The translations under genes were made by a program, and so were the position numbers. DNA of 64,000 nucleotides from Kineococcus rubinsiae. GTDB taxonomy: Bacteria; Actinomycetota; Actinomycetes; Actinomycetales; Kineococcaceae. The DNA is taken from the NCBI RefSeq assembly GCF_011839805.1, contig NZ_VWPY01000020.1, positions 1-64,000 on the forward strand, given 5' to 3'. This document shows, piece after piece, positions 2,945 through 64,000 of this stretch. How positions within the stretch are numbered: the stretch's first letter is position 1; every line of letters starts with the position of its first letter. Under the pieces are notes generated by a model. That model saw nothing but the letters and a program-made list of their open reading frames with translations. It was not told the origin of the DNA and searched no databases.

Positions 2945-4879
2945 ATGACGGCCCTGGAGACGACTCCCGACGGAGACCGCACGACCGCCCGCACCGGGAC
3001 GGGGACCGGGGTGGGCACCGGGGTGCGCACCGGGGTGCGCACCGGGGTGAGCAACGACGCCGCCGCGGTGCTCGGCCAGGCCACGGCGAACCCGGAGCTG
3101 CTCGACTGGGTCCGCCGGACGGCCCTGCTGACCCAGCCGGACGCCGTCGTCTGGTGCGACGGCTCGCAGGAGGAGCACGACCGCCTCACGGCGCAGATGG
3201 TCGCCGACGGCACGCTCATCGCCCTGGACCCGGTGAAGCGCCCCCGCAGCTTCCTGGCCCGCTCGGCGCCCGGCGACGTCGCCCGCGTCGAGCACCGGAC
3301 GTTCATCGCCTCCGAGCGGGAGCAGGACGCGGGCCCCACGAACAACTGGCGGGAGCCCGCGGCCCTGCGCGTCGAGCTCGACGAGGCGTTCGCCGGCTGC
3401 ATGCGCGGGCGGACGATGTACGTGGTGCCGTTCTCGATGGGCCCCGTGGGCGGGCCGATCTCGCAGCTCGGGGTCCAGCTCACCGACTCCCCCTACGTGG
3501 TCGTCAGCATGCGCGTCATGACGCGCACGGGGTCCGCGGCCCTCGCGGCGATCACCCCCGGAACCCCCTTCGTCCCGGCCGTGCACAGCGTCGGGTACCC
3601 GCTCGTGGCCGCGGACGGCACGACCCGCCCGGACGTCGCGTGGCCCTGCAACCCGGTCAAGCACGTCGCCCACTTCCCCGAGACGCGGGAGATCTGGTCG
3701 TTCGGCTCCGGGTACGGCGGCAACGCCCTGCTGGGCAAGAAGTGCTTCGCCCTGCGGATCGCCTCCGTCATGGCCCGCGACGAGGGCTGGCTGGCCGAGC
3801 ACATGCTGATCCTCAAGGTGACGACGCCGGCGGGGCGGGTGCACCACCTGGCGGCGGCGTTCCCGTCCGCGTGCGGCAAGACGAACCTCGCCATGCTGCA
3901 GCCCAGCCTGCCGGGCTGGCGCGTGGAGACGATCGGCGACGACATCGCGTGGATGCGGCCCGGCGCCGACGGGCGGCTGCGCGCCATCAACCCCGAGTCG
4001 GGGTTCTTCGGGGTGGCCCCCGGCACCGGCCCGGCGACCAACCCGGTCGCGGTGGAGATGCTGCGGGAGAACGTCATCTTCACCAACTGCGCCCTCACCG
4101 AGGACGGCGACGTGTGGTGGGAGGGGCTCACCGACGAACCCCCGGCCTCCCTCACCGACTGGCGCGGCGAGCCGTGGACCCCGGACTCGGGGCGGCCCGC
4201 GGCCCACCCCAACGCCCGGTTCACGGTGCCGGCCGCGCAGTGCCCCTCGCTCGCGGAGGAGTTCTCCGACCCGGACGGCGTCGTCATCGACGCGGTCCTG
4301 TTCGGCGGCCGCCGCCGCAGCAACGTCCCGCTCGTCGCGGAGTCGCTGGACTGGGGTCACGGGGTGTTCATGGGGGCCACGATCTCCTCCGAGCAGACCG
4401 CCGCCGCGGAGGGCACGGTCGGCCGGCTGCGCCACGACCCGTTCGCGATGCTGCCGTTCTCCGGCTACCACATGGCCGACTACTTCCAGCACTGGCTCGA
4501 TGTGGGCGCGAAGCTGCCCACCCACGGCCTGCCCACGGTGTTCAGCGTGAACTGGTTCCGCCGCGGTGACGACGGCGGGTTCCTGTGGCCCGGGTTTGGC
4601 GAGAACGCCCGCGTGCTGGAGTGGATCTGCGGCCGGCTCGAGGGCTCGGCCGGCGCGCGGTTCTCCCCGCTGGGGCACCTGCCCGCCGAGGGCGCCCTCG
4701 ACGTGTCCGGCCTCGACGTCTCCCCCGCCGACCTCGCCGAGCTGTTCCGCGTCGACCCGCAGGCGTGGCTGGCCGAGGTCGACCTGCTCGAGGCGTACTT
4801 CGCGGGCTTCGGCCGCAAGCTGCCCGCGGAGATCAGCGGGCACCTGGAGCTGCTGCGCTACCGCCTCTCGGGCGCCTGA
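2945..4879 (+). CDS. pckG: Phosphoenolpyruvate carboxykinase (GTP)
   Basis: Converts oxaloacetate plus GTP to PEP, CO2 and GDP, the first committed step of gluconeogenesis. The 644-residue product carries the PEPCK-specific [19 protein letters not shown], the P-loop [13 protein letters not shown] (about 305-317) with the mobile active-site cysteine, the metal-binding [11 protein letters not shown], and [11 protein letters not shown]. The ATG at 2945 follows a GGAGG by a good distance, although the frame is open upstream. The N-terminus is about 35 residues longer than usual and holds a four-residue TGVR-like repeat (separate entry). A hairpin after the stop ends the gene. The RamB-like regulator is divergent, 119 bp away. 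Confidence 0.95.
3005..3052 (+). repeat. Four-copy 12-bp tandem repeat inside pckG
   Basis: ACCGGGGTG recurs at 3005, 3017, 3029 and 3041 in a 12-bp register and encodes a Thr-Gly-Val-Arg/Gly repeat in the non-conserved N-terminal extension of PEP carboxykinase. It looks like slippage expansion and its copy number may vary between strains. No function is evident. Confidence 0.8.
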
Positions 4880-6824: not shown

Positions 6825-7022
6825 CGGCCCTCTGTCTCCACGGTCCCGGCGGGCGCGTGTTGCGCCGGTGTTTCCACTGCGTCAACTTCCGCTGCACGGC
6901 GTCCCGAGGCTCACCCGGACGGCCTAGCGTCGAGCGCGTGTCCCCGGGGTGACCTGCCGCAGCCGGCCGGTGGCGTCCGCGGCACGGAGCCCGAACGGCC
7001 GCGACCGCAGAGAGGGACACCG

Positions 7023-8726
7023 ATGACCCAGCCCACCAGCGGGCCCGGCGCCGAACCGTCGACCGCGACGGCCGTGCACCCCGGCGTCAGCACCGCCACC
7101 TCCGAGACCCTCGAGGACTACACCCTCCGGTTCGCGCCCCGCAGCTACCGGCGCTGGACCCCGGGGGTCGTGGCCACCTCGGCCCTGGGCGGGATCGCCT
7201 ACCTCGCCGACTTCTCGATCGGCGCGAACATCGGCATCGCCCACGGCACGGTGAACGCCCTGCTGGGCATCGCCGTCGCCGCGGTCGTCATCTTCGTGAC
7301 CGGGTTCCCGCTGGCGTACTACGCGGCGCGCTACAACGTCGACCTCGACCTCATCACCCGGGGTTCCGGCTTCGGCTACTACGGCTCGGTCGTCACGAAC
7401 GTCATCTTCGCGACGTTCACGTTCATCTTCTTCGCCCTCGAGGGCTCGATCATGGCGCAGGGCCTGGAGCTCGGGCTCGGCATCCCCCGCTGGCTCGGGT
7501 ACGCCGTCTCGACGCTCATGGTCATCCCGCTGGTGATCTACGGCATGAAGGCGCTGTCGAAGCTGCAGGTGTGGACGACGCCGCTGTGGCTGGTGCTCAT
7601 GGTGATCCCCTTCGCCTACCTCGTCATCGCCAACCCCTCCTCGGTGGGGGACTTCGCCTCCTACGCCGGCGAGGACGGGCAGGGCGGCACGATCAGCGCC
7701 GCCGCGGTGTTCCTGGCCGCGGGCGTGTGCCTCTCGCTCATCGCGCAGATCGCCGAGCAGATCGACTACCTACGTTTCATGCCGCCGCGGACGCCGGAGA
7801 ACTCCCGCCGCTGGTGGTCGGCCATGGTGCTGGCCGGCCCGGGCTGGGTCGTCTTCGGGGCGCTCAAGCAGGCCATCGGCCTGTTCATCGCCGTCTACCT
7901 CATCGCCTCGCTCGACCCGGCCGCGGCGGCCACGGCCAACGAGCCCGTCCACCAGTTCCTCGGCGTGTACGAGGAGATGATGCCCGGCTGGCTGGCCATG
8001 ACCCTGGCCGTCGTCCTGGTCGTCATCAGCCAGATCAAGATCAACGTCACCAACGCCTACTCCGGCTCGCTGGCCTGGACGAACTCCTTCACGCGGGTCA
8101 CCAAGCACTACCCCGGCCGGATGCTCTTCGTCATCGTCAACCTCGTCATCGCGCTGACGCTGATGGAGGCGAACATGTTCGACTTCCTCAACACCATCCT
8201 GGGGTTCTACGCGAACTGCGCGATGGCCTGGATCGTCACGGTGGCGACCGACATCATCGTCAACAAGCACCTGCTCAAGCTGTCGCCGCTGGTCCCGGAG
8301 TTCCGGCGCGGGATGCTGTACGCCGTCAACCCCGTCGGGTTCACGTCGATGCTGGTCTCGGCCCTCGCCTCCATCCTCGTGTTCTTCGGGGTCTTCGGCG
8401 CGGGCCTGCAGCCCTACTCCCCGATCGTGGCGGTCGTCCTCGCGGTCGTCTTGACGCCGGTCGTCGCGGTGGCCACGAAGGGCCGCTACTACCTGCGCCG
8501 CGCCGACGACGGCCTCCCGAACGCCCTGTTCGACGAGTTCGGCAACCCCTCCGGCGAGGTCCTCACCTGCCACGTCTGCCGGCAGGACTACGAGCGCCCC
8601 GACGTGGCCGCCTGCCAGACCCACGACGACGTCGTCTGCTCGCTGTGCCTGAGCACCGACCGGGTCGCCGACCACGTCCTGCCCGCCGACCCGCCCGCGG
8701 TCGCGGTCCTGCCCGCCCCGCGGTGA
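7023..8726 (+). CDS. NCS1 purine/cytosine/allantoin-type permease with a C-terminal Cys/His zinc-binding tail
   Basis: A 567-residue NCS1 (cytosine-purine permease) transporter. About 12 hydrophobic helices run from SALGGIAYLADFSIGANIG to about residue 490, including the conserved GSGFGYYGSV and SQIKINVTNAYSG regions. The unusual part is a cytoplasmic tail of about 70 residues with the pattern C-x2-C-x11-C-x2-H-x4-C-x2-C (from CHVC to CSLC), which resembles a small zinc finger or RING/B-box and is not part of standard NCS1 carriers. ATG 7023 follows a GAGAGGG site. The urease operon starts 97 bp downstream, so the substrate may be a urea precursor such as a purine or allantoin, or urea-related; this is inferred. 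Confidence 0.85.
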   Translation: MTQPTSGPGAEPSTATAVHPGVSTATSETLEDYTLRFAPRSYRRWTPGVVATSALGGIAYLADFSIGANIGIAHGTVNALLGIAVAAVVIFVTGFPLAYYAARYNVDLDLITRGSGFGYYGSVVTNVIFATFTFIFFALEGSIMAQGLELGLGIPRWLGYAVSTLMVIPLVIYGMKALSKLQVWTTPLWLVLMVIPFAYLVIANPSSVGDFASYAGEDGQGGTISAAAVFLAAGVCLSLIAQIAEQIDYLRFMPPRTPENSRRWWSAMVLAGPGWVVFGALKQAIGLFIAVYLIASLDPAAAATANEPVHQFLGVYEEMMPGWLAMTLAVVLVVISQIKINVTNAYSGSLAWTNSFTRVTKHYPGRMLFVIVNLVIALTLMEANMFDFLNTILGFYANCAMAWIVTVATDIIVNKHLLKLSPLVPEFRRGMLYAVNPVGFTSMLVSALASILVFFGVFGAGLQPYSPIVAVVLAVVLTPVVAVATKGRYYLRRADDGLPNALFDEFGNPSGEVLTCHVCRQDYERPDVAACQTHDDVVCSLCLSTDRVADHVLPADPPAVAVLPAPR

Positions 8727-8822
8727 CGTCTCCGCAGCTGCGAGCGGGGTCCTGCGGTACAACTGCGGTCACGACGGCCACCGGGACCCGGCGGCCACCG
8801 CGACAGGGAGGGAGGACCGGAC

Positions 8823-9463: not shown

Positions 9464-11159
9464 GATCGACCGCACGGCCTACGCCGCGCTCTACGGCCCG
9501 ACCACCGGCGACCAGGTCCGCCTGGGCGACACCGACCTCTGGATCGAGGTGGAGGCCGACCTCACCGCGGGCGGCGAGGAGGCCGTGTTCGGGGGCGGCA
9601 AGTCGATCCGCGAGTCGATGGCGCAGGGCACCACGACCCGCGCGGAGGGCTCCCCGGACACCGTCATCACCAACGCGGTCGTGCTGGACCACACGGGGAT
9701 CTACCGCGCCGACGTCGGGATCCGCGACGGGCTCGTCTGCGGCATCGGCCGCGCGGGCAACCCCGACATCGCCGACGGGGTCGACCCGCGGCTGCGCATC
9801 GGGCCCGGCACCGACGTCGTCTCGGGCGAGGGGCGCATCCTCACGGCCGGCGGCATCGACAGCCACGTCCACCTGATCTCCCCCTCGCAGGTCCACGAGG
9901 CGCTCGCCGCGGGGCTCACGACCCTCGTGGGCGGCGGCACCGGGCCCAGCGAGGGCACGAAGGCCACGACCGTCACCCCGGGCGCGTGGCACCTGCGCGC
10001 CGCCCACCGCGCCCTGGACGACCTGCCCGTGAACCTCCTGCTGCTGGGCAAGGGGAACACCGTCAGCGCCGCGGGCCTCGCCGAGCAGGCCCTCGCCGGG
10101 GCGGGCGGCTACAAGGTCCACGAGGACTGGGGTTCCACCCCCGCCGCGATCGACGCCGCGCTGCGCGCCGCCGGCGAGTTCGGCCTGCAGGTGGCCCTGC
10201 ACTCCGACTCCCTCAACGAGTCCGGCTACGTCGACTCCACGATCGCCGCGATCGGCGGCCGCTCGATCCACGCCTTCCACACCGAGGGCGCGGGCGGCGG
10301 GCACGCCCCCGACATCATCACCGTCGCCGGGCTCCCGAACGTCGTGCCCGGCTCCACGAACCCCACGCTGCCGCACACCGTGAACACGGTGCCGGAGCAC
10401 CTCGACATGCTGATGGTCTGCCACCACCTGAACCCCACGGTGCCCGAGGACCTGGCGTTTGCTGAGTCCCGGATCCGCGCCACGACCATCGCGGCCGAGG
10501 ACGTCCTGCACGACCTGGGGGCGCTGTCCATCACGAGCTCCGACGCGCAGGCCATGGGCCGCATCGGTGAGGTCATCACCCGCACCTGGCAGGTCGCGCA
10601 CGTCATGAAGGCCCGCCGCGGTCCGCTGGGCGAGACGTTCCCCGCCGACAACGAGCGCGCCCGCCGCTACGTCGCGAAGTACACGATCAACCCCGCCGTG
10701 GCGCACGGGATCGACCACCTCGTCGGCTCCGTCGAGGTGGGCAAGCTCGCCGACCTCGTCCTGTGGGAACCCGCGTTCTTCGGCGTCCGGCCCTCGGTGG
10801 TCCTCAAGGGCGGCGCCCTCGTCGTCGGGGCCCTGGGCGACCCGAACGCCTCGATCCCCACCCCGCAGCCCGTGCTGATGCGCCCCGCGCTCATCGCGGC
10901 CGCCGGGGCGGACCACAGCGTCACGTTCGTCAGCCCCGCGGCCCTCGACGACGGGCTGGCCGGCCGGCTCGGCCTGCGGCGCAGGCTGGTGGCGGTGCGG
11001 GACACGCGCGCGGTCGGCAAGGCGCAGATGGTCCACAACGACGCCCTGCCGCGCATCGAGGTGGACCCGGAGACGTTCGCGATCCGGATCGACGGCGACC
11101 TCGTGGAACCCGCCCCCGTGGACGTCCTGCCGCTCGCCCAGCTGTACTCGCTGTTCTGA
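9456..11159 (+). CDS. ureC: Urease alpha (catalytic) subunit
   Basis: Catalytic subunit carrying the dinuclear nickel site (567 residues, normal length). Nickel ligands and active-site residues are intact: HVHLISP (the His-x-His pair), [11 protein letters not shown] (carbamylated lysine), ALHSDSLNE (His), [14 protein letters not shown] (His), SSDAQAMGR (Asp). The mobile-flap motif MVCHHLN holds the catalytic His. The start is GTG 9456, overlapping ureB. The enzyme should be active if nickel delivery works. Confidence 0.98.
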
Positions 11160-37805: not shown

Positions 37806-37990
37806 GGCCTCTCCGACGCCTGCGAGGTGAGCTGTCGGGTTCGGGCGGGAAGGTCGCCCGGCCGGTTCGCACCGGCTTCACCCCAAGGACTTCTGCTCGA
37901 CCCGCAGGTCTCGCTCGGCCCGGGAACTTGGTTCCCCCACCCCTGCCATGGGTGTCGTGGGACCTCCTCGCGGTGGCAGGGCTCGGCGTC
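37806..37990 (-). promoter_or_regulatory. ydaO-type cyclic di-AMP riboswitch
   Basis: On the minus strand the leader has the ydaO hallmarks in order: a GGGGGAACC segment, GGGGTGAAGCCGGTGCGAAC (37884-37865) with its pairing partner, then CCCGAACCCGACAGCTCACC (37846-37827) followed by TCGCAGGCG, and the GGAGAGG ribosome site just after. In Actinobacteria this class controls cell-wall hydrolases and switches off on binding c-di-AMP. Limits are approximate. Confidence 0.88.
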
Positions 37991-44883: not shown

Positions 44884-44959
44884 CCGGGGACAGGGGAAGT
44901 CCCCGGGCGCTTCCTCCACGTCGGTGGAGGGCCGGATGGACAGACCGGCGCCCGGGGAC
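44884..44959 (-). ncRNA. Structured leader with mutually exclusive stems upstream of the MFS exporter
   Basis: Read on the minus strand, segment A (44959-44948, GTCCCCGGGCGC) pairs over 12 bp with segment B (44910-44899, GCGCCCGGGGAC), enclosing two hairpins: GCCGG/CCGGC and CCTCCAC-CGAC-GTGGAGG, a three-way junction. Segment B can instead pair over 8 bp with segment C (44891-44884, GTCCCCGG) to make a local hairpin. A and C are near-copies, so the two folds exclude each other, as in attenuators. No known RNA family was recognised. Confidence 0.45.
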
Positions 44960-45028
44960 CCGGTGACTGCCTGGGTTTCGCCGCGCTGCGCGGGGCGACC
45001 AGAGCGGTCCGCGTCCTGCACGCAGCTG

Positions 45029-45067
45029 CTAGCTGGCAGCCACCTCACGTGTCCGAGAAGAACTCAT
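45029..45067 (-). CDS. 12-codon upstream ORF in the MFS leader
   Basis: ATG 45067 to TAG 45029 encodes MSSSRTREVAAS. It has an exceptionally strong AAGGAGGT ribosome site 10 nt upstream (45085-45078). CCAGAGC directly before the ATG is complementary to GCTCTGG about 70 nt downstream, so translation of this peptide could gate leader folding. It is a candidate leader peptide, not a conserved protein I can name. Confidence 0.5.
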   Translation of the reverse strand: MSSSRTREVAAS

Positions 45068-45099
45068 GCTCTGGACCACCTCCTTCCTCGTGTACGAGA

Positions 45100-53308: not shown

Positions 53309-54583
53309 TCAGGCGGTGGAACCGCCCTGCTGCGCGACCGACGCGGCGGTGCCGATGTCCCACACGTACGGCGGGGTGGTGCCGTTGACGGAGAAGTCCC
53401 CGACGATGCGCGCCTTGTAGATCACCGGGTTGTGGCTGGCGACCGTGCGCGCGTTGCGCCAGTGCCGGTCGAGGTTCCTGCTCGTGGAGACCCCCGAGGC
53501 GCCCAGGGTGTCGAACAGCGCGGTCGCCGCGGCCGGCACCGAGCGCGAGAGCACCACCTGGGCCTGGGCCGTGGCGATCTCGGCGACGACGTTGGCGGCC
53601 AGGTCCTCGGGCGAGTCGCGCCGGGCGGCGGTGTCGGCGGCGCCCTGGACCGCCTCGGCCGCCCCGCGCACCAGCAGGCGCGCGGCGAACGCGGCCGCGC
53701 TGATCTCCCCGGCCACGGCGAGGACGGCGGGGTCCTCGCGCACCAGCGGGGCCAGGCCGTGGGTGTAGGTGCGGGTGCGGGCGCGCACCTCGGCGCCCGT
53801 GTCCCGCTCGATCGCGGCGGCGATGCCGGCCTGCACGGTCAGCAGCACCAGCTGGTAGAGCGCGGTCTGGTAGCGGAAGCGGCCCTCGAAGGGGGCCACG
53901 TCCTCCTCCTCGACCCGGGCCCGGTCCAGGACGAGCGTGCCGGTGCCGGTGACGCGCTGGCCGAAGCCGTCCCAGTCGTCGGAGACGGTGACGCCGTCCT
54001 GGCCGGTGCGCACCAGCGCCGTGGACGCCTCGTCGCCCACCCGGCAGGTCACGTCCGCCCAGTCGGCGAAGATCGTGCCCGTCGTGTAGTACTTGCGGCC
54101 GCTGACGACCCACCCCGCACCGTCGCGCTCGACGACGGTGCCCGAGCGGCCGATGACGTCGCCCGTGGCCGACCACGCGTTGCCGACCAGGTCCCCCGCG
54201 GTGACCCGCGCCAGCCAGCCGTCGCGGTAGGAGCCCGGCGGCAGCGTCAGGAGGTGCTCCACCCACGCGAGGTGGCCGCGGAAGATCTGCGGGAGAGCGG
54301 GATCGGCGGTCGCGGCCTCCACCAGGAGCTCGGCGGTCTCGACCCACGTCAGCCCGTCGCCCCCGAGGTCGGCGGGCACGCGCAGGTTCCCGAACCCGGC
54401 GGCGGCCAGGGCGCGCACCTGCGCGCGGGGCAGCTCGCGCTCGGCCTCGCGGCGCGACGCGCCCTCGGCGGCCTCGGCGAACAGCGGCGCGAGGCGGGCG
54501 CGGGCGGCGGCCAGGCGGCCGGCGCGCTCCTCGGCGCTCCCGCGGGTGGCGGCGGCGGAGGTCGCGTCGGTGGTGGTGGTCAC
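53309..54583 (-). CDS. DszC/SfnB-type flavin-dependent monooxygenase (acyl-CoA-dehydrogenase fold)
   Basis: A 424-residue protein with the acyl-CoA dehydrogenase fold: an N-terminal helical part (ALAAAGFGNLRVPADLGGDGLTWVETAELLVEAA), a central beta domain (NAWSATGDVIGRSGTVVERDGAGWVVSGRKYYTTGTIFADW) and a C-terminal helical bundle with NLDRHWRNARTVASHNPVIYKARIVGDFSVNG. The HWRNARTVASHNP tail is characteristic of DszC/SfnB-like FMNH2-dependent monooxygenases acting on dibenzothiophene, sulfones or sulfonates rather than CoA esters. The SAM riboswitch upstream supports a sulfur-scavenging role. GTG 54583 is the start. Confidence 0.85.
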   Translation of the reverse strand: MTTTTDATSAAATRGSAEERAGRLAAARARLAPLFAEAAEGASRREAERELPRAQVRALAAAGFGNLRVPADLGGDGLTWVETAELLVEAATADPALPQIFRGHLAWVEHLLTLPPGSYRDGWLARVTAGDLVGNAWSATGDVIGRSGTVVERDGAGWVVSGRKYYTTGTIFADWADVTCRVGDEASTALVRTGQDGVTVSDDWDGFGQRVTGTGTLVLDRARVEEEDVAPFEGRFRYQTALYQLVLLTVQAGIAAAIERDTGAEVRARTRTYTHGLAPLVREDPAVLAVAGEISAAAFAARLLVRGAAEAVQGAADTAARRDSPEDLAANVVAEIATAQAQVVLSRSVPAAATALFDTLGASGVSTSRNLDRHWRNARTVASHNPVIYKARIVGDFSVNGTTPPYVWDIGTAASVAQQGGSTA

Positions 54584-54629: not shown

Positions 54630-54747
54630 TGCCCGGGGGCCCGCCTTACCCGTGCGCGAGCACCAGGTCAGGTCATCACCCGGGGCACCCCACAGCGAGG
54701 AGGGTTGCCGTCCAGCGAGCCGGGGCTTCGCGCTGGAACTCGTGACC
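54630..54747 (-). promoter_or_regulatory. SAM-IV-type riboswitch upstream of the monooxygenase
   Basis: Minus strand: GGTCACGAGTTCCAGCG, then GCCCCGGCTCGCTGG, CGGCAACCCTCC, GTGGGGTGCCCCGGGTGATG and ACCTGACCTGGTG form the SAM-clan core, with P1 closed by GGTCA/TGACC. It is nearly identical to the aptamer at 54936-55050 in the other orientation. A TAGTTT -10 (54760-54755) lies just before it. It should switch the sulfur gene off when SAM is high. Confidence 0.88.
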
Positions 54748-54935: not shown

Positions 54936-55050
54936 GGTCACGAGTTCCAGCAGAGAGCCCCGGCTTGCTGGGCGGCAACCCTCCTCGTCGTGGGGTGCCC
55001 CGGGTGATGACCTGACCTGGTGCCGACGCACCGGTAAGGACGAGCCTCCC
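54936..55050 (+). promoter_or_regulatory. SAM-IV-type riboswitch upstream of an MFS carrier
   Basis: Plus strand: GGTCACGAGTTCCAGCAG, GCCCCGGCTTGCTGG, CGGCAACCCTCC, GTGGGGTGCCCCGGGTGATG, ACCTGACCTGGTG and a terminal GGTAAGG. It is the mirror copy of the aptamer at 54630-54747; the two make a long imperfect inverted repeat. It lies 53 nt before the carrier start. Confidence 0.9.
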
Positions 55051-55103: not shown

Positions 55104-56462
55104 ATGGCTGCACGGCTCGACCACTCGCGCTGGAAACCCGCGCACACCCGCATCGCCACCGCCCTGGGCATCGGCTGGATGCTCGACGCCTTCGAGGTGC
55201 AGATCATCGGCTCGGTGATCCCGGGCATCCAGGCCGAGTTCGGCCTGGGCGCCGGCCAGGCGGTCACCATCAACGTCGTCTGGTTCCTCGGGATCGCCGT
55301 GGGCGCCGTCGGTTTCGGCTGGCTCGCCGACAAGGTGGGGCGCAAGCGCCTGTTCGTCGCGACCCTGCTGGTGTACTCGATCGCCGCGGTGGCCAGTTCG
55401 GCGGCACCCTCGTACGAGGTCTTCATGGTGTTCCGGTTCATCACGGCCCTCGGGGTCGGCGGTGAGTACTCGGCGATCACCTCGGCGATCTCGGAGTTCA
55501 CGCCGGCGCGCAACCGCGGGCGCAGCAACGGCCTGGTCATGAGCTTCTGGGCGCTCGGCGGGATCCTGTCCTCGCTGGTCTCCATCCTCGTCATCTCCAC
55601 GTTCGGGCTGACGTGGCGCTACACCCTGCTGTTCGGGGTGGTCAGCGCCGTCTACGGCCTGCTCGCCCGGCGCCTGGTGCCCGAGTCCCCGCGGTGGCTG
55701 GCCTCCCGCGGACGGCTGGCGGAGGCCGACGCCGTGGTCGAGGCGATCACCGGGCAGGCCAGCGCGGAGGGCTACGCGCTGCCGCCCTCGTCGGCCCGGG
55801 GCGGCAGCGCCCTGGGTGAGCTGTGGGCCCACCACCGCAGCAAGCTGTTCCTGGGGATGGCGCTGGACTTCTCCGAGGCCGCGGGCTACTACGGGTTGTT
55901 CACGGCGATGAGCGTCTTCGTGTTCTCCTCCGCCTCGGGTGCCGTGCCGATCTCCGACGCCGCGCTGCCGTACTACTTCCTCATCGCCAACGTCGGGGCG
56001 CTGGCCGGCGGCGTGCTCATCGCCTGGGCGCTGGACCGCCTGGGGCGCAAGCCGTCGGTCGTCGCGGCCTACACGGGTGCGTCGCTGAGCATGCTCGGGT
56101 GCGCGGCGGCGGCGTCGACGGGTTCGCGGGCGCTCGTGCTCGTGGCGTTCACCGTCGCGGCGTTCTTCGCCACGTGCGCCTGGGTCTCGGCCTACCCCAC
56201 GTTCTCGGAGCAGTTCCCCACCCACCTGCGCGCCACCGGGGTCGGTGCGTCGGTCGGCGTGGGCCGCATGGGCGCGGTGGTGGGTCAGGTGCTGCTGGCC
56301 GAGGTCGCGGTGGCCTTCTCCGTCACGTCGATGTTCGTGCTGCTCGCCGCCTTCTGGCTGATCGGCTCGGTGGCGGGCGTGGTCTGGTGGTCGCGCGGCG
56401 TCGAGGCGCGGGGCATGACGCTGGGCGACCTGGAGCACGTGCCCGCTCCGGTCGGGTCCTGA
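55104..56462 (+). CDS. MFS carrier under SAM riboswitch control (probable organosulfur uptake)
   Basis: A 452-residue metabolite:H+ symporter-type MFS protein with about 12 helices: GIGWMLDAFEVQIIGSVIPGI, the motif A GFGWLADKVGRKRLFVATLLV, RFITALGVGGEYSAITSAISEF, LVPESPRWLASRGR and the second motif A-like WALDRLGRKPSVVAAY. This architecture is typical for uptake of organic acids and aromatic compounds. The SAM riboswitch and divergent DszC/SfnB-type monooxygenase suggest the cargo is an organosulfur compound; this is inferred. ATG 55104 with GAGGA upstream. It ends before a 14-bp hairpin. Confidence 0.85.
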   Translation: MAARLDHSRWKPAHTRIATALGIGWMLDAFEVQIIGSVIPGIQAEFGLGAGQAVTINVVWFLGIAVGAVGFGWLADKVGRKRLFVATLLVYSIAAVASSAAPSYEVFMVFRFITALGVGGEYSAITSAISEFTPARNRGRSNGLVMSFWALGGILSSLVSILVISTFGLTWRYTLLFGVVSAVYGLLARRLVPESPRWLASRGRLAEADAVVEAITGQASAEGYALPPSSARGGSALGELWAHHRSKLFLGMALDFSEAAGYYGLFTAMSVFVFSSASGAVPISDAALPYYFLIANVGALAGGVLIAWALDRLGRKPSVVAAYTGASLSMLGCAAAASTGSRALVLVAFTVAAFFATCAWVSAYPTFSEQFPTHLRATGVGASVGVGRMGAVVGQVLLAEVAVAFSVTSMFVLLAAFWLIGSVAGVVWWSRGVEARGMTLGDLEHVPAPVGS

Positions 56463-61951: not shown

Positions 61952-63172
61952 TCAGCCGAACAACCGCTCGCTCGCCAGGCGCGCGCCGTCGCTCAGCGCC
62001 GCGAGCTTGGCCACGGCGATCTGCGGGTGGATGCGCCCGCCCAGACCGCAGTCGGTCGAGGCGATGACGTTCTCCGCACCGACGACGGACGCGAAGCGCT
62101 CGATCCGGTCGGCGACGAGCTCGGGGTGCTCGACGACGTTCGTGGCGTGGCTCACGATCCCCGGCACGATCTTCTTGCCCGCGGGCAGGGGCAGGTCCTT
62201 CCACACCTTCCACTCGTGCTCGTGCCGCGCGTTGGCCGCCTCGAAGGAGTAGGCGCCGGCGTCGATCTCGAGCATGACGTCGGCGATGTGGCGGAACTCC
62301 ACGTCCGTCGTGTGCGGGCCGTGCCAGCTGCCCCAGCACAGGTGGAAGCGGACCCGGTCGGTGTCCAGGCCGCGCAGGGCGTGGTTCAGCGCCTCGACCC
62401 GGATGCGGGTGAACGCCCGGTAGTCCTCGATCGAGGGTTCGGGGTTGATCTGGTCGTAGTTCTCGGCGATCGAGGGGTCGTCGACCTGGAGGGTCAGGCC
62501 GGCGTCCAGCACCGCGCGGTACTCCTCGCGCAGCACGTCGGCCCAGGCCCAGATGTGCTCCTCCTCGGTGGCGTAGTGCCGGTTGGAGATGCGCGCACCG
62601 CTGCCCGGGGAGAGCGAGGTGATGAAACCCTCCTCCAGCCCCGCGGCCGCCAGCCCCGCCTTGAGGTTGGCGATGTCGGAGGCGATCGCCTCCTGACCCA
62701 CGTAGGACAGCGGCCCCGTCGTCGCCGGGAACGCCGTGGCGTTCTTCCCCGTGGAGATGCCGGACGTCGGGTCGGTGTAGGCGTCGCGGAAGGTCGTCCA
62801 GTCGCGCCGGTCGGGGAAGCTGGTCAGCCGCACGTGCCCGGGCTCGGAGCGGACCACCGGCTGGGCGAAGAGGTCCTCCCCCGTGACGGTCAGCCCCGCC
62901 ACGCGCTGGAACGAGTACGACCACCAGGCGCCGTAGTCCACCGCGCTGGTCATGGCCTTGCCGTACTCGCCGTCCCCGACGACCGTCACCCCCAGCGCGG
63001 CCTGCCGTACGACGAGGTCGACGACCGCGTCGGTGAGGAGGCCGTCGAACTCCGGGGTGCGTTCCAGCGTGAGGCCGTCGGCGGCGAGGGTGCGGGCGTC
63101 GTTCGCGGCGATGAGCTCGGGCGTGCGGGGCAGGCTGCCCGCGTGGGTGACGGGGACCTGGCGGCGGCTCAC
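61952..63172 (-). CDS. Cobalamin-independent methionine-synthase-II-family methyltransferase
   Basis: 406 residues equivalent to the C-terminal catalytic half of MetE. The zinc ligands are present: RVRFHLCWGSWHG (His and Cys), AYSFEAANARHEHEW (Glu) and ASTDCGLGGRIHPQIA (Cys). The N-terminus reads VTHAGSLPRTPEL. Members such as YxjG/YxjH use methyl donors other than polyglutamyl-folate to methylate homocysteine; some act on sulfonium or other thiol substrates. GTG 63172 has a GAGGAGA site. No SAM aptamer lies on this strand, but the divergent riboflavin kinase has one. Confidence 0.88.
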   Translation of the reverse strand: MSRRQVPVTHAGSLPRTPELIAANDARTLAADGLTLERTPEFDGLLTDAVVDLVVRQAALGVTVVGDGEYGKAMTSAVDYGAWWSYSFQRVAGLTVTGEDLFAQPVVRSEPGHVRLTSFPDRRDWTTFRDAYTDPTSGISTGKNATAFPATTGPLSYVGQEAIASDIANLKAGLAAAGLEEGFITSLSPGSGARISNRHYATEEEHIWAWADVLREEYRAVLDAGLTLQVDDPSIAENYDQINPEPSIEDYRAFTRIRVEALNHALRGLDTDRVRFHLCWGSWHGPHTTDVEFRHIADVMLEIDAGAYSFEAANARHEHEWKVWKDLPLPAGKKIVPGIVSHATNVVEHPELVADRIERFASVVGAENVIASTDCGLGGRIHPQIAVAKLAALSDGARLASERLFG

Positions 63173-63414
63173 GGGATGCGTCTCCTCGGAGGTGGTTCGG
63201 GTTGCGCGCGAGCACGTCGCGCGGAGGTCCGCCGCGGGAGGGGCGGCTCCCGCGCGCGGCACGGGGACGACGGGCCGGGTCTGTCGGCCGGTCTGGGAGG
63301 TGCTGCCAGCGTAGGCCACACCCGCCGGGCGCGGCCCGTCGTGCTCCTCCCCCCGCCCGCTCCGTGCCGGTCCGCGTCTTGACCGTGCTGCGGTCCTCTG
63401 CCACCCTCGGCAAC
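63173..63414. other. Divergent intergenic region between MetE-like and riboswitch/kinase genes
   Basis: About 240 bp with a minus-strand TACGCT box near 63311-63316 that may start the MetE-like transcript and a plus-strand TTGACC for the kinase. No aptamer is visible on the minus strand and no small ORF with a ribosome site was found. Confidence 0.4.
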
Positions 63415-63530
63415 GGTCATGAGTGCCGACGGAGAGCCCCGGCTCGTCGGCCGGCAACCCTCCTGCTGCGTGGGGTGCCCCGGGTGAGGACCAGGCCTGC
63501 AGGGTTCCCTGCCGGCAAGGCAGAGCTCCC
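63415..63530 (+). promoter_or_regulatory. SAM-IV-type riboswitch upstream of riboflavin kinase
   Basis: GGTCATGAGTGCCGACGGAG, GCCCCGGCTCGTCGG, CCGGCAACCCTCC, GTGGGGTGCCCCGGGTGAGG, ACCAGGCCTGCAGG and GGCAAGG reproduce every core element of the two aptamers near 54.6-55.0 kb, with covarying stem changes (CCGACG/CGTCGG for CCAGC/GCTGG). A TTGACC (63379-63384) lies upstream as -35; the -10 is weak. Only 27 nt separate the aptamer from the kinase start. Confidence 0.9.
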
Positions 63531-63557
63531 GCGCGGAGCCCGAGACGAGGACACGAC

Positions 63558-64000
63558 GTGGTCGACACCTTCCCCGAACAGCGCACTCCCCTCCTGACGG
63601 TGCGCGGCGTCGTCGAGCACGGCGACGAACGCGGCCGGACCCTGGGTTTCCCCACCGCCAACGTCCCCGTCACCGGGGTGGTCGTGCACGACGGCGTCTG
63701 GGCGGGGACAGTGCAGGTCGACCCCCGCTCGGACGGCCCCGTGCACGTGGCCGCGGTCTCGGTGGGGCACCGCCCCACGTACTACGGCCGCGAGGGCGTG
63801 CGGTTGCTGGAGGCGAACCTGCTGGACTTCGACGGCGACCTCTACGACCGCGAGGTCCTGGTCACGCTGCACGAGCGGCTGCGGCCCCAGCGGCGGTTCG
63901 CGGGTTCCGACGACCTCGTCCGGCAGCTGCGCGACGACGTCGCGGCGACGCGGGCCTGGGCCCGCTCCCACGCCGCGGGGCGGGTCGTCACCCCCGCCTA
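63558..64000 (+). CDS. Stand-alone riboflavin kinase (FMN-forming), 3' end at window edge
   Basis: Phosphorylates riboflavin to FMN. 147 codons are visible, then TA at the last two bases, probably the first two of a stop. Signatures: VRGVVEHGDERGRTLGFPTAN (GRTLGFPTAN is the flavokinase ATP/Mg loop), GVWAGTVQV, VSVGHRPTYYG, LLEANLLDFDGDLYDREVLV. The FAD-synthetase half of RibF is absent, unlike the usual bacterial fusion, so this is an extra, dedicated kinase. GTG 63558 follows GAGGACACGAC. It sits behind a SAM riboswitch, so FMN supply here answers to SAM level. Confidence 0.85.
   Translation, partial: MVDTFPEQRTPLLTVRGVVEHGDERGRTLGFPTANVPVTGVVVHDGVWAGTVQVDPRSDGPVHVAAVSVGHRPTYYGREGVRLLEANLLDFDGDLYDREVLVTLHERLRPQRRFAGSDDLVRQLRDDVAATRAWARSHAAGRVVTPA

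Follow-up and report, generated by a model that had tools for sequence, protein, structure and literature searches.

A SAM-IV riboswitch ahead of a stand-alone flavokinase gene in Kineococcus and its probable link to FMN supply for sulfur scavenging

Described systems and the flavokinase of the K. rubinsiae locus

SAM riboswitches usually control genes of methionine, cysteine and organosulfur metabolism, which fits the other SAM riboswitches of the genome described here. For the SAM-IV type, the cryo-EM structure paper describes, in its accessible text, a PK-2 pseudoknot formed by the P3 loop with the 3' tail (PMC6890682). The closest described link between a flavokinase and sulfur metabolism is RibR of Bacillus subtilis, a monofunctional flavokinase encoded in a 12-gene sulfur transcription unit, which is reportedly induced by methionine or taurine and repressed by MgSO4 (PMC7693651, available text). 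This ytmIJKLMNO-ytnIJ-ribR-ytnLM operon is controlled by the repressor YrzC/CymR, and the S-box units named alongside in the accessible part of the same source do not include it (PMC2743287). The ytn cluster contains acetyltransferase, monooxygenase and deacetylase genes (PMC12757645, accessible text). No published flavokinase under a SAM riboswitch was found among the literature matches listed, most subscription papers lying outside the coverage. An earlier note on this DNA knew of no described flavokinase in a SAM regulon. A flavokinase tied to sulfur supply is described in RibR (PMC7693651 and PMC2743287, in their available parts). The coupling of flavokinase to sulfur is hence already known, and what appears to be new is that a SAM riboswitch controls it.

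The window analysed here is a stretch of 64,000 nucleotides of Kineococcus rubinsiae DNA, and the features at its end are as follows.

63379..63407, plus strand: promoter-like pair TTGACC (63379-63384), 17-nt spacer and CACCCT (63402-63407), the -10 element being our reading
63415..63527, plus strand: SAM-IV riboswitch aptamer (RF00634, 93.9 bits, full length)
63463..63467, plus strand: PK-2 strand in the P3 loop, CUGCU, able to pair with 63519-63523
63519..63523, plus strand: PK-2 strand in the 3' tail, GGCAG, able to pair with 63463-63467
63525..63539, plus strand: short hairpin GCUCC-CGCGC-GGAGC between the aptamer and the Shine-Dalgarno sequence, from a fold of the platform alone; putative part of the expression platform
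63547..63551, plus strand: Shine-Dalgarno sequence GAGGA, read from the sequence
63558..64000, plus strand: stand-alone flavokinase (riboflavin kinase) of 147 aa (PF01687, 111.8 bits; aligned to solved RFK modules)

The kinase frame starts with GTG at 63558 and ends with TAG at 63999-64001, of which the final base lies 1 nt beyond the window. Its product matched the Pfam Flavokinase family (PF01687) with 111.8 bits against a cut-off of 19.6 over residues 14-134. The NCBIfam RibF models matched the 147-aa protein through their C-terminal part alone, all below cut-off, which bears out the earlier description of a kinase without the FAD-synthetase half. In an alignment of 10 sequences the RFK motif PTAN and a Glu were located, with P32, T33, N35 and E85 invariant and A34 nearly so, and the protein was also aligned to the solved proteins 5a88 and 3op1. 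PTAN and this Glu belong to the RFK active site. These features point to riboflavin kinase activity of the protein.

The same genome encodes an intact bifunctional RibF on another contig (C36), while a further stand-alone kinase is found on C76. The window kinase is therefore an extra copy, which shares the C-terminal kinase domain with RibF (43% identity to that of its own genome in the alignment) and differs from it in lacking the FAD-synthetase half and in lying in another gene neighbourhood. A truncated bifunctional RibF was ruled out, as the gene has its own Shine-Dalgarno sequence, start and stop, and the RibF of the genome is intact elsewhere. The arrangement resembles that of B. subtilis in that a kinase-only flavokinase exists beside a bifunctional enzyme (RibFC in B. 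subtilis), RibR lying in a sulfur operon. It differs in its control, which is exerted by the CymR repressor there according to the accessible sources, whereas a SAM riboswitch is located in the kinase leader or at the operon head here, in Actinomycetota. In addition, the window protein is the kinase domain alone and has no C-terminal extension. Downstream of the kinase stop the contig comprises 244 bases and ends within a transposase frame on the minus strand (rve_3, 83.7 bits). Neither a monooxygenase nor a flavin reductase was found beside the kinase in the 7 kb upstream or in these 244 bases. A gene with a MetE C-terminal-type domain (Meth_synt_2; 61952-63172, minus strand) is divergent to the kinase, and a similar-looking protein is encoded near the L096 kinase (3004-4188).

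The SAM-IV aptamer and the kinase leader

The match of the Rfam SAM-IV model (RF00634) to the window reaches 93.9 bits, the gathering score being 38, and has an E value of 9.1e-16 over model positions 1-116 of 116. This covariance search had been proposed in the earlier note, whose complete SAM-clan aptamer was thus recovered from end to end; the distance to the kinase start codon is 30 nt, not the 27 nt given there. The window leader shares with the described SAM-IV riboswitch a complete aptamer, a conserved core, the PK-2 pairing of P3 loop and 3' tail, and its position in a 5' leader. It differs in its target, which is a flavokinase and not a methionine, cysteine or organosulfur gene.

Most of the strongly conserved SAM-IV letters, the PK-2 strands aside, agree with the consensus in the window copy, and the core blocks GCCCCGGCU, CGGCAACCC and GGGGUGCCCCGGGUGA are identical across all three SAM-IV kinase leaders found in the genus. 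Such a match argues against a look-alike aptamer that senses a ligand other than SAM. Rare variants of SAM aptamers are described to sense spermidine in the available text of PMC10853860, which gives this explanation a precedent, and for the present leaders we consider it highly improbable. The PK-2 pairing is possible in the three leaders with differing letters, namely CUGCU/GGCAG, CUGCC/GGCAG and CCCGUGC/GCGCGGG. The fit of loop and tail was evaluated on SAM-IV aptamers of the genus, of which 32 out of 46 were tried, 9 were dropped as not fitting the search pattern, and 23 were parsed. The mean pairing score was 15.5 within copies versus 14.1 between copies, and 1 of 2000 permutations reached the observed within-copy mean.

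TTGACC is located exactly 36 nt 5' of the aptamer in three out of three SAM-IV kinase leaders, a constant distance that is expected if the transcript begins at the aptamer. A transcript from the TTGACC/CACCCT pair would begin at about this point. A scan of the window kinase leader for a strict consensus promoter found none. An intrinsic terminator with a U-tract was sought in the kinase leader and was not found, and folding of the leader and platform gave no convincing helix that sequesters the Shine-Dalgarno sequence. The lowest-energy folds of the leader alone lose the aptamer, and hence no switching mechanism was drawn from them. Control at the level of translation is our guess. In the SAM-I/IV clan, SAM is known to turn expression off. 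By this relationship the kinase leader, which would bind SAM, presumably works in the OFF direction.

Recurrence of SAM control over stand-alone kinases in Kineococcus

A set of 11 Kineococcus genomes was examined, all of which contain SAM-IV elements (46 in total). Full-length stand-alone kinases were found as 14 copies in five of these genomes, a count that leaves out a partial match (G032:C448) and a distant match (G078:C2). Each of the five genomes has one copy under a SAM riboswitch, so that 5 of the 14 copies are SAM-controlled, and the other nine exhibited no SAM riboswitch in the stretches scanned. The scans extended over a stretch around each of the 14 copies and could overlook a switch at the head of a longer operon. 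A SAM-IV element is located immediately upstream of the kinase in three genomes, that is, in the window genome, in K. indalonis (L074/L084; 94.2 bits; in L074 the aptamer at 4565-4678 and the kinase at 4065-4523 on the minus strand) and in K. vitellinus (L079/L085; 74.6 bits; in L079 the aptamer at 6837-6949 and the kinase from 6988). In the two other genomes, at L243 and L223, a SAM-I riboswitch (64.1 bits) heads an operon with the order SBP5-permease-permease-ATPase-kinase, in which the kinase is the fifth and last gene and begins 4 and 6 nt past the ATPase gene in the two cases, as delimited by our gene caller. The survey of kinase-only genes and their leaders that the earlier note had suggested thus uncovered SAM control in 5 of the 11 genomes, by two riboswitch classes. 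The arrangement of a SAM-IV aptamer with a stand-alone kinase is real and recurrent.

In a tree of the kinases, the protein of K. vitellinus, which is under SAM-IV, clusters with both copies from the SAM-I operons (95/86 support), and the window and K. indalonis proteins are left unplaced. The cluster indicates that one kinase lineage is under SAM-IV or SAM-I depending on the species. The SAM regulon of Kineococcus probably includes a dedicated flavokinase as a regular component, under SAM-IV or SAM-I by species and within one lineage too, through which SAM would set FMN apart from FAD synthesis for FMNH2-dependent sulfur scavenging. Among 20 kinase loci scanned outside Kineococcus, some of them with short upstream stretches (approximately 220 bases for L098), no SAM riboswitch was found. 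A class-wide search (394 genomes, E <= 1e-24) gave 19 matches besides the kinases' own copies, which were assigned to bifunctional RibF by a frame length of at least 312 aa; divergent stand-alone copies would escape a search at this threshold.

A chance pairing of SAM-IV and kinase was ruled out, as 0.015 cases were expected versus 3 seen (Poisson p ~5e-7) under a model that places each of the 46 SAM-IV elements before a random gene, with 14 full-length kinases in 11 genomes. A different possibility is that the kinase inherited the leader of a neighbouring sulfur gene by hitch-hiking, and is controlled by SAM without a physiological role. The abundance of SAM-IV in the genus and the transposase frame beside the window kinase speak for such an event. 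The occurrence in five genomes, with two riboswitch classes and differing gene arrangements, speaks against it, as do the preserved spacing and pseudoknot pairing and the open frames of the kinases, for which a dN/dS of ~0.44 was estimated between the window and K. indalonis proteins (a rough value, the codon bias being extreme). This origin is accordingly judged improbable, and a functional SAM-controlled kinase is preferred.

SAM regulon, gene neighbourhoods and the proposed role of the kinase

The genome contains 6 SAM-I and 5 SAM-IV elements. One of the genes behind a SAM riboswitch encodes SfnG, which matched the dimethylsulfone monooxygenase model with 589.4 bits (cut-off 383), and another encodes an FMN-dependent monooxygenase of the NtaA/DmoA family (524.5 bits, cut-off 279.7). 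An ABC operon under a SAM riboswitch ends in a second monooxygenase of the NtaA/DmoA type (479.5 bits). Hence at least three FMN-dependent monooxygenases share the SAM signal of the kinase. The SAM-riboswitch genes also include a sulfonate-type ABC transporter, a metY-type gene (O-acetylhomoserine sulfhydrylase-type), a metF-type gene, a methyltransferase-fold protein and a metNIQ-type transporter; for several genes of this regulon the analysed stretch stops inside the gene, and their scores lie below the equivalog cut-offs. Within the window, two back-to-back SAM-IV elements precede a divergent pair of genes for an SfnB-like oxidoreductase and an MFS transporter.

53309..54583, minus strand: SfnB/DszC-like protein of acyl-CoA-dehydrogenase fold behind SAM-IV (Pfam)
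54637..54747, minus strand: SAM-IV ahead of the SfnB-like gene (RF00634, 87 bits)
54936..55046, plus strand: SAM-IV ahead of the MFS transporter gene (RF00634, 87 bits)
55104..56462, plus strand: MFS transporter behind SAM-IV (PF00083/PF07690)

For the SfnB/DszC-like protein both NCBIfam scores are lower than required (249.7 against a cut-off of 430.9 for SfnB; 94.5 against 850 for the other model), and SfnG and the NtaA/DmoA enzymes are therefore better candidate partners of the kinase. One FMN riboswitch was found in the genome, ahead of ribD (RibD_C, 161.8 bits). Control of the kinase by an FMN riboswitch was ruled out on this basis, and the kinase is wired to SAM, not to FMN.

Genes for LLM monooxygenases or flavin reductases were located within ~7 kb of 20 out of 34 stand-alone kinase loci and of none of 65 bifunctional RibF loci (Fisher p 3e-12), and for Kineococcus alone the figures are 8 of 14 versus 0 of 11 (p 0.003); these p-values are too small, since the loci are related, some come from one genome, and the counts are not independent samples. 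The search covered ~7 kb on either side, less at contig ends, and the 34 stand-alone loci, made up of 19 from named genomes and 15 others, include one fusion (L081). Of the 65 bifunctional loci, 13 belong to Kineococcus or to two further genomes of its order, and 52 are others; the latter come from 73 loci that were sorted into 19 stand-alone and 52 bifunctional ones, with 2 (L125 and L137) left out for a contig end immediately upstream. Almost all monooxygenase and reductase queries originate from stand-alone loci, and the exclusion of same-locus queries removes this bias in part. Several of the queries were confirmed with Pfam (Bac_luciferase, Flavin_Reduct and FMN_red). The window kinase is among the 14 stand-alone loci that gave no monooxygenase or reductase match. 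L077 has a consecutive run of genes on one strand, in which two LLM monooxygenases are followed by the kinase and then by a flavin reductase and an FMN reductase. The LLM gene adjoining the K. indalonis kinase is broken into two frames in a draft assembly. Compared with the CmoO/CmoJ salvage of S-alkylcysteine, as presented in the accessible text of PMC10863075, this K. indalonis kinase adjoins an LLM monooxygenase, a GNAT acetyltransferase and an ABC transporter, and the Kineococcus loci are distinguished by SAM riboswitch control.

Taken with the regulon, these neighbourhoods are consistent with the following mechanism. While SAM is plentiful, the SAM-IV leader would repress the accessory kinase-only riboflavin kinase. 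A drop in SAM, as under poor sulfur or methionine supply, would allow the kinase to be made along with the other genes of the SAM regulon, and the enzyme would convert riboflavin to FMN with no onward step to FAD. Flavin reductases would turn this FMN into FMNH2 for two-component monooxygenases (SfnG and the NtaA/DmoA type), which would release sulfur from organosulfur compounds. The aptamer, the kinase domain, its recurrence, the neighbourhoods and the regulon content were all computed, and we infer from them that FMN rises at low SAM and is limiting. Repression of the kinase by the SAM-IV leader, with low SAM yielding FMN for FMNH2-dependent sulfur scavenging, is probably the correct reading. 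A supply of FMN at low SAM had been foreseen from the window alone; the neighbourhoods, SfnG and the two NtaA/DmoA genes strengthen this proposal, and the SfnB/DszC-like protein, given there as an example of a partner, is a poorer candidate than these monooxygenases.

A second role for a SAM-responsive kinase would be mainly to restore the flavin pool or to regulate rib genes in the manner of RibR. A C-terminal extension of approximately T-G-[ILV]-P-x-x-Y-L-R-x-x-Y-P is common to the stand-alone kinases L080, L087, L088, L091, L227 and L245, and presumably recalls the extra domain of RibR. In these relatives the extension could bind nucleic acid. FMN riboswitches are believed to be subject to interference by RibR, likewise a monofunctional flavokinase and encoded in a sulfur transcription unit, according to the available text of PMC7693651. 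All five SAM-controlled kinases, including that of the window, lack the extension, just one FMN riboswitch was found in the genome, and the monooxygenase neighbourhoods point toward enzyme supply. A role of the RibR kind is thus rather unlikely, though it is the strongest competitor of FMN supply for sulfur scavenging.

If the supply of FMN is indeed placed under SAM, a cofactor-supply gene joins the reach of SAM riboswitches, and a second, independently wired link between FMN and sulfur hunger would exist after that of Bacillus RibR. This suggests that FMN, besides the reductase or the monooxygenase, can limit organosulfur scavenging, and kinase-only genes adjoining LLM monooxygenases may mark sulfur-scavenging loci in actinobacteria. 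The system is open to a direct test, as it consists of one riboswitch, one small gene and one measurable metabolite.

Several further observations were made on the kinase loci. In Kineococcus, the stand-alone kinases at L075 and L222 have pyrimidine-degradation-like genes nearby: an isochorismatase-fold gene adjoins the kinase at L075, and a RutA-like LLM gene (286 bits versus a cut-off of 498) adjoins that at L222. These neighbours indicate that the accessory kinase may also serve FMN-dependent enzymes outside sulfur metabolism. At L081 (5881-7596, minus strand), a 572-aa fusion of an MFS transporter with a C-terminal flavokinase lies beside flavin reductase and LLM monooxygenase genes. The kinase frame at L092 of Arthrobacter sp. 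SO3 (7007-8737, plus strand) continues into an apparent aldehyde dehydrogenase, which is a possible fusion. Other Rfam matches of the window are a 5_ureB_sRNA at 9606-9901 (minus strand), which is marginal (42.5 versus 40) and may be spurious, a c-di-AMP riboswitch at 37821-37953 (minus strand, 60 bits) and an Ms_IGR-5 sRNA at 44891-45093 (minus strand, 104.4 bits).
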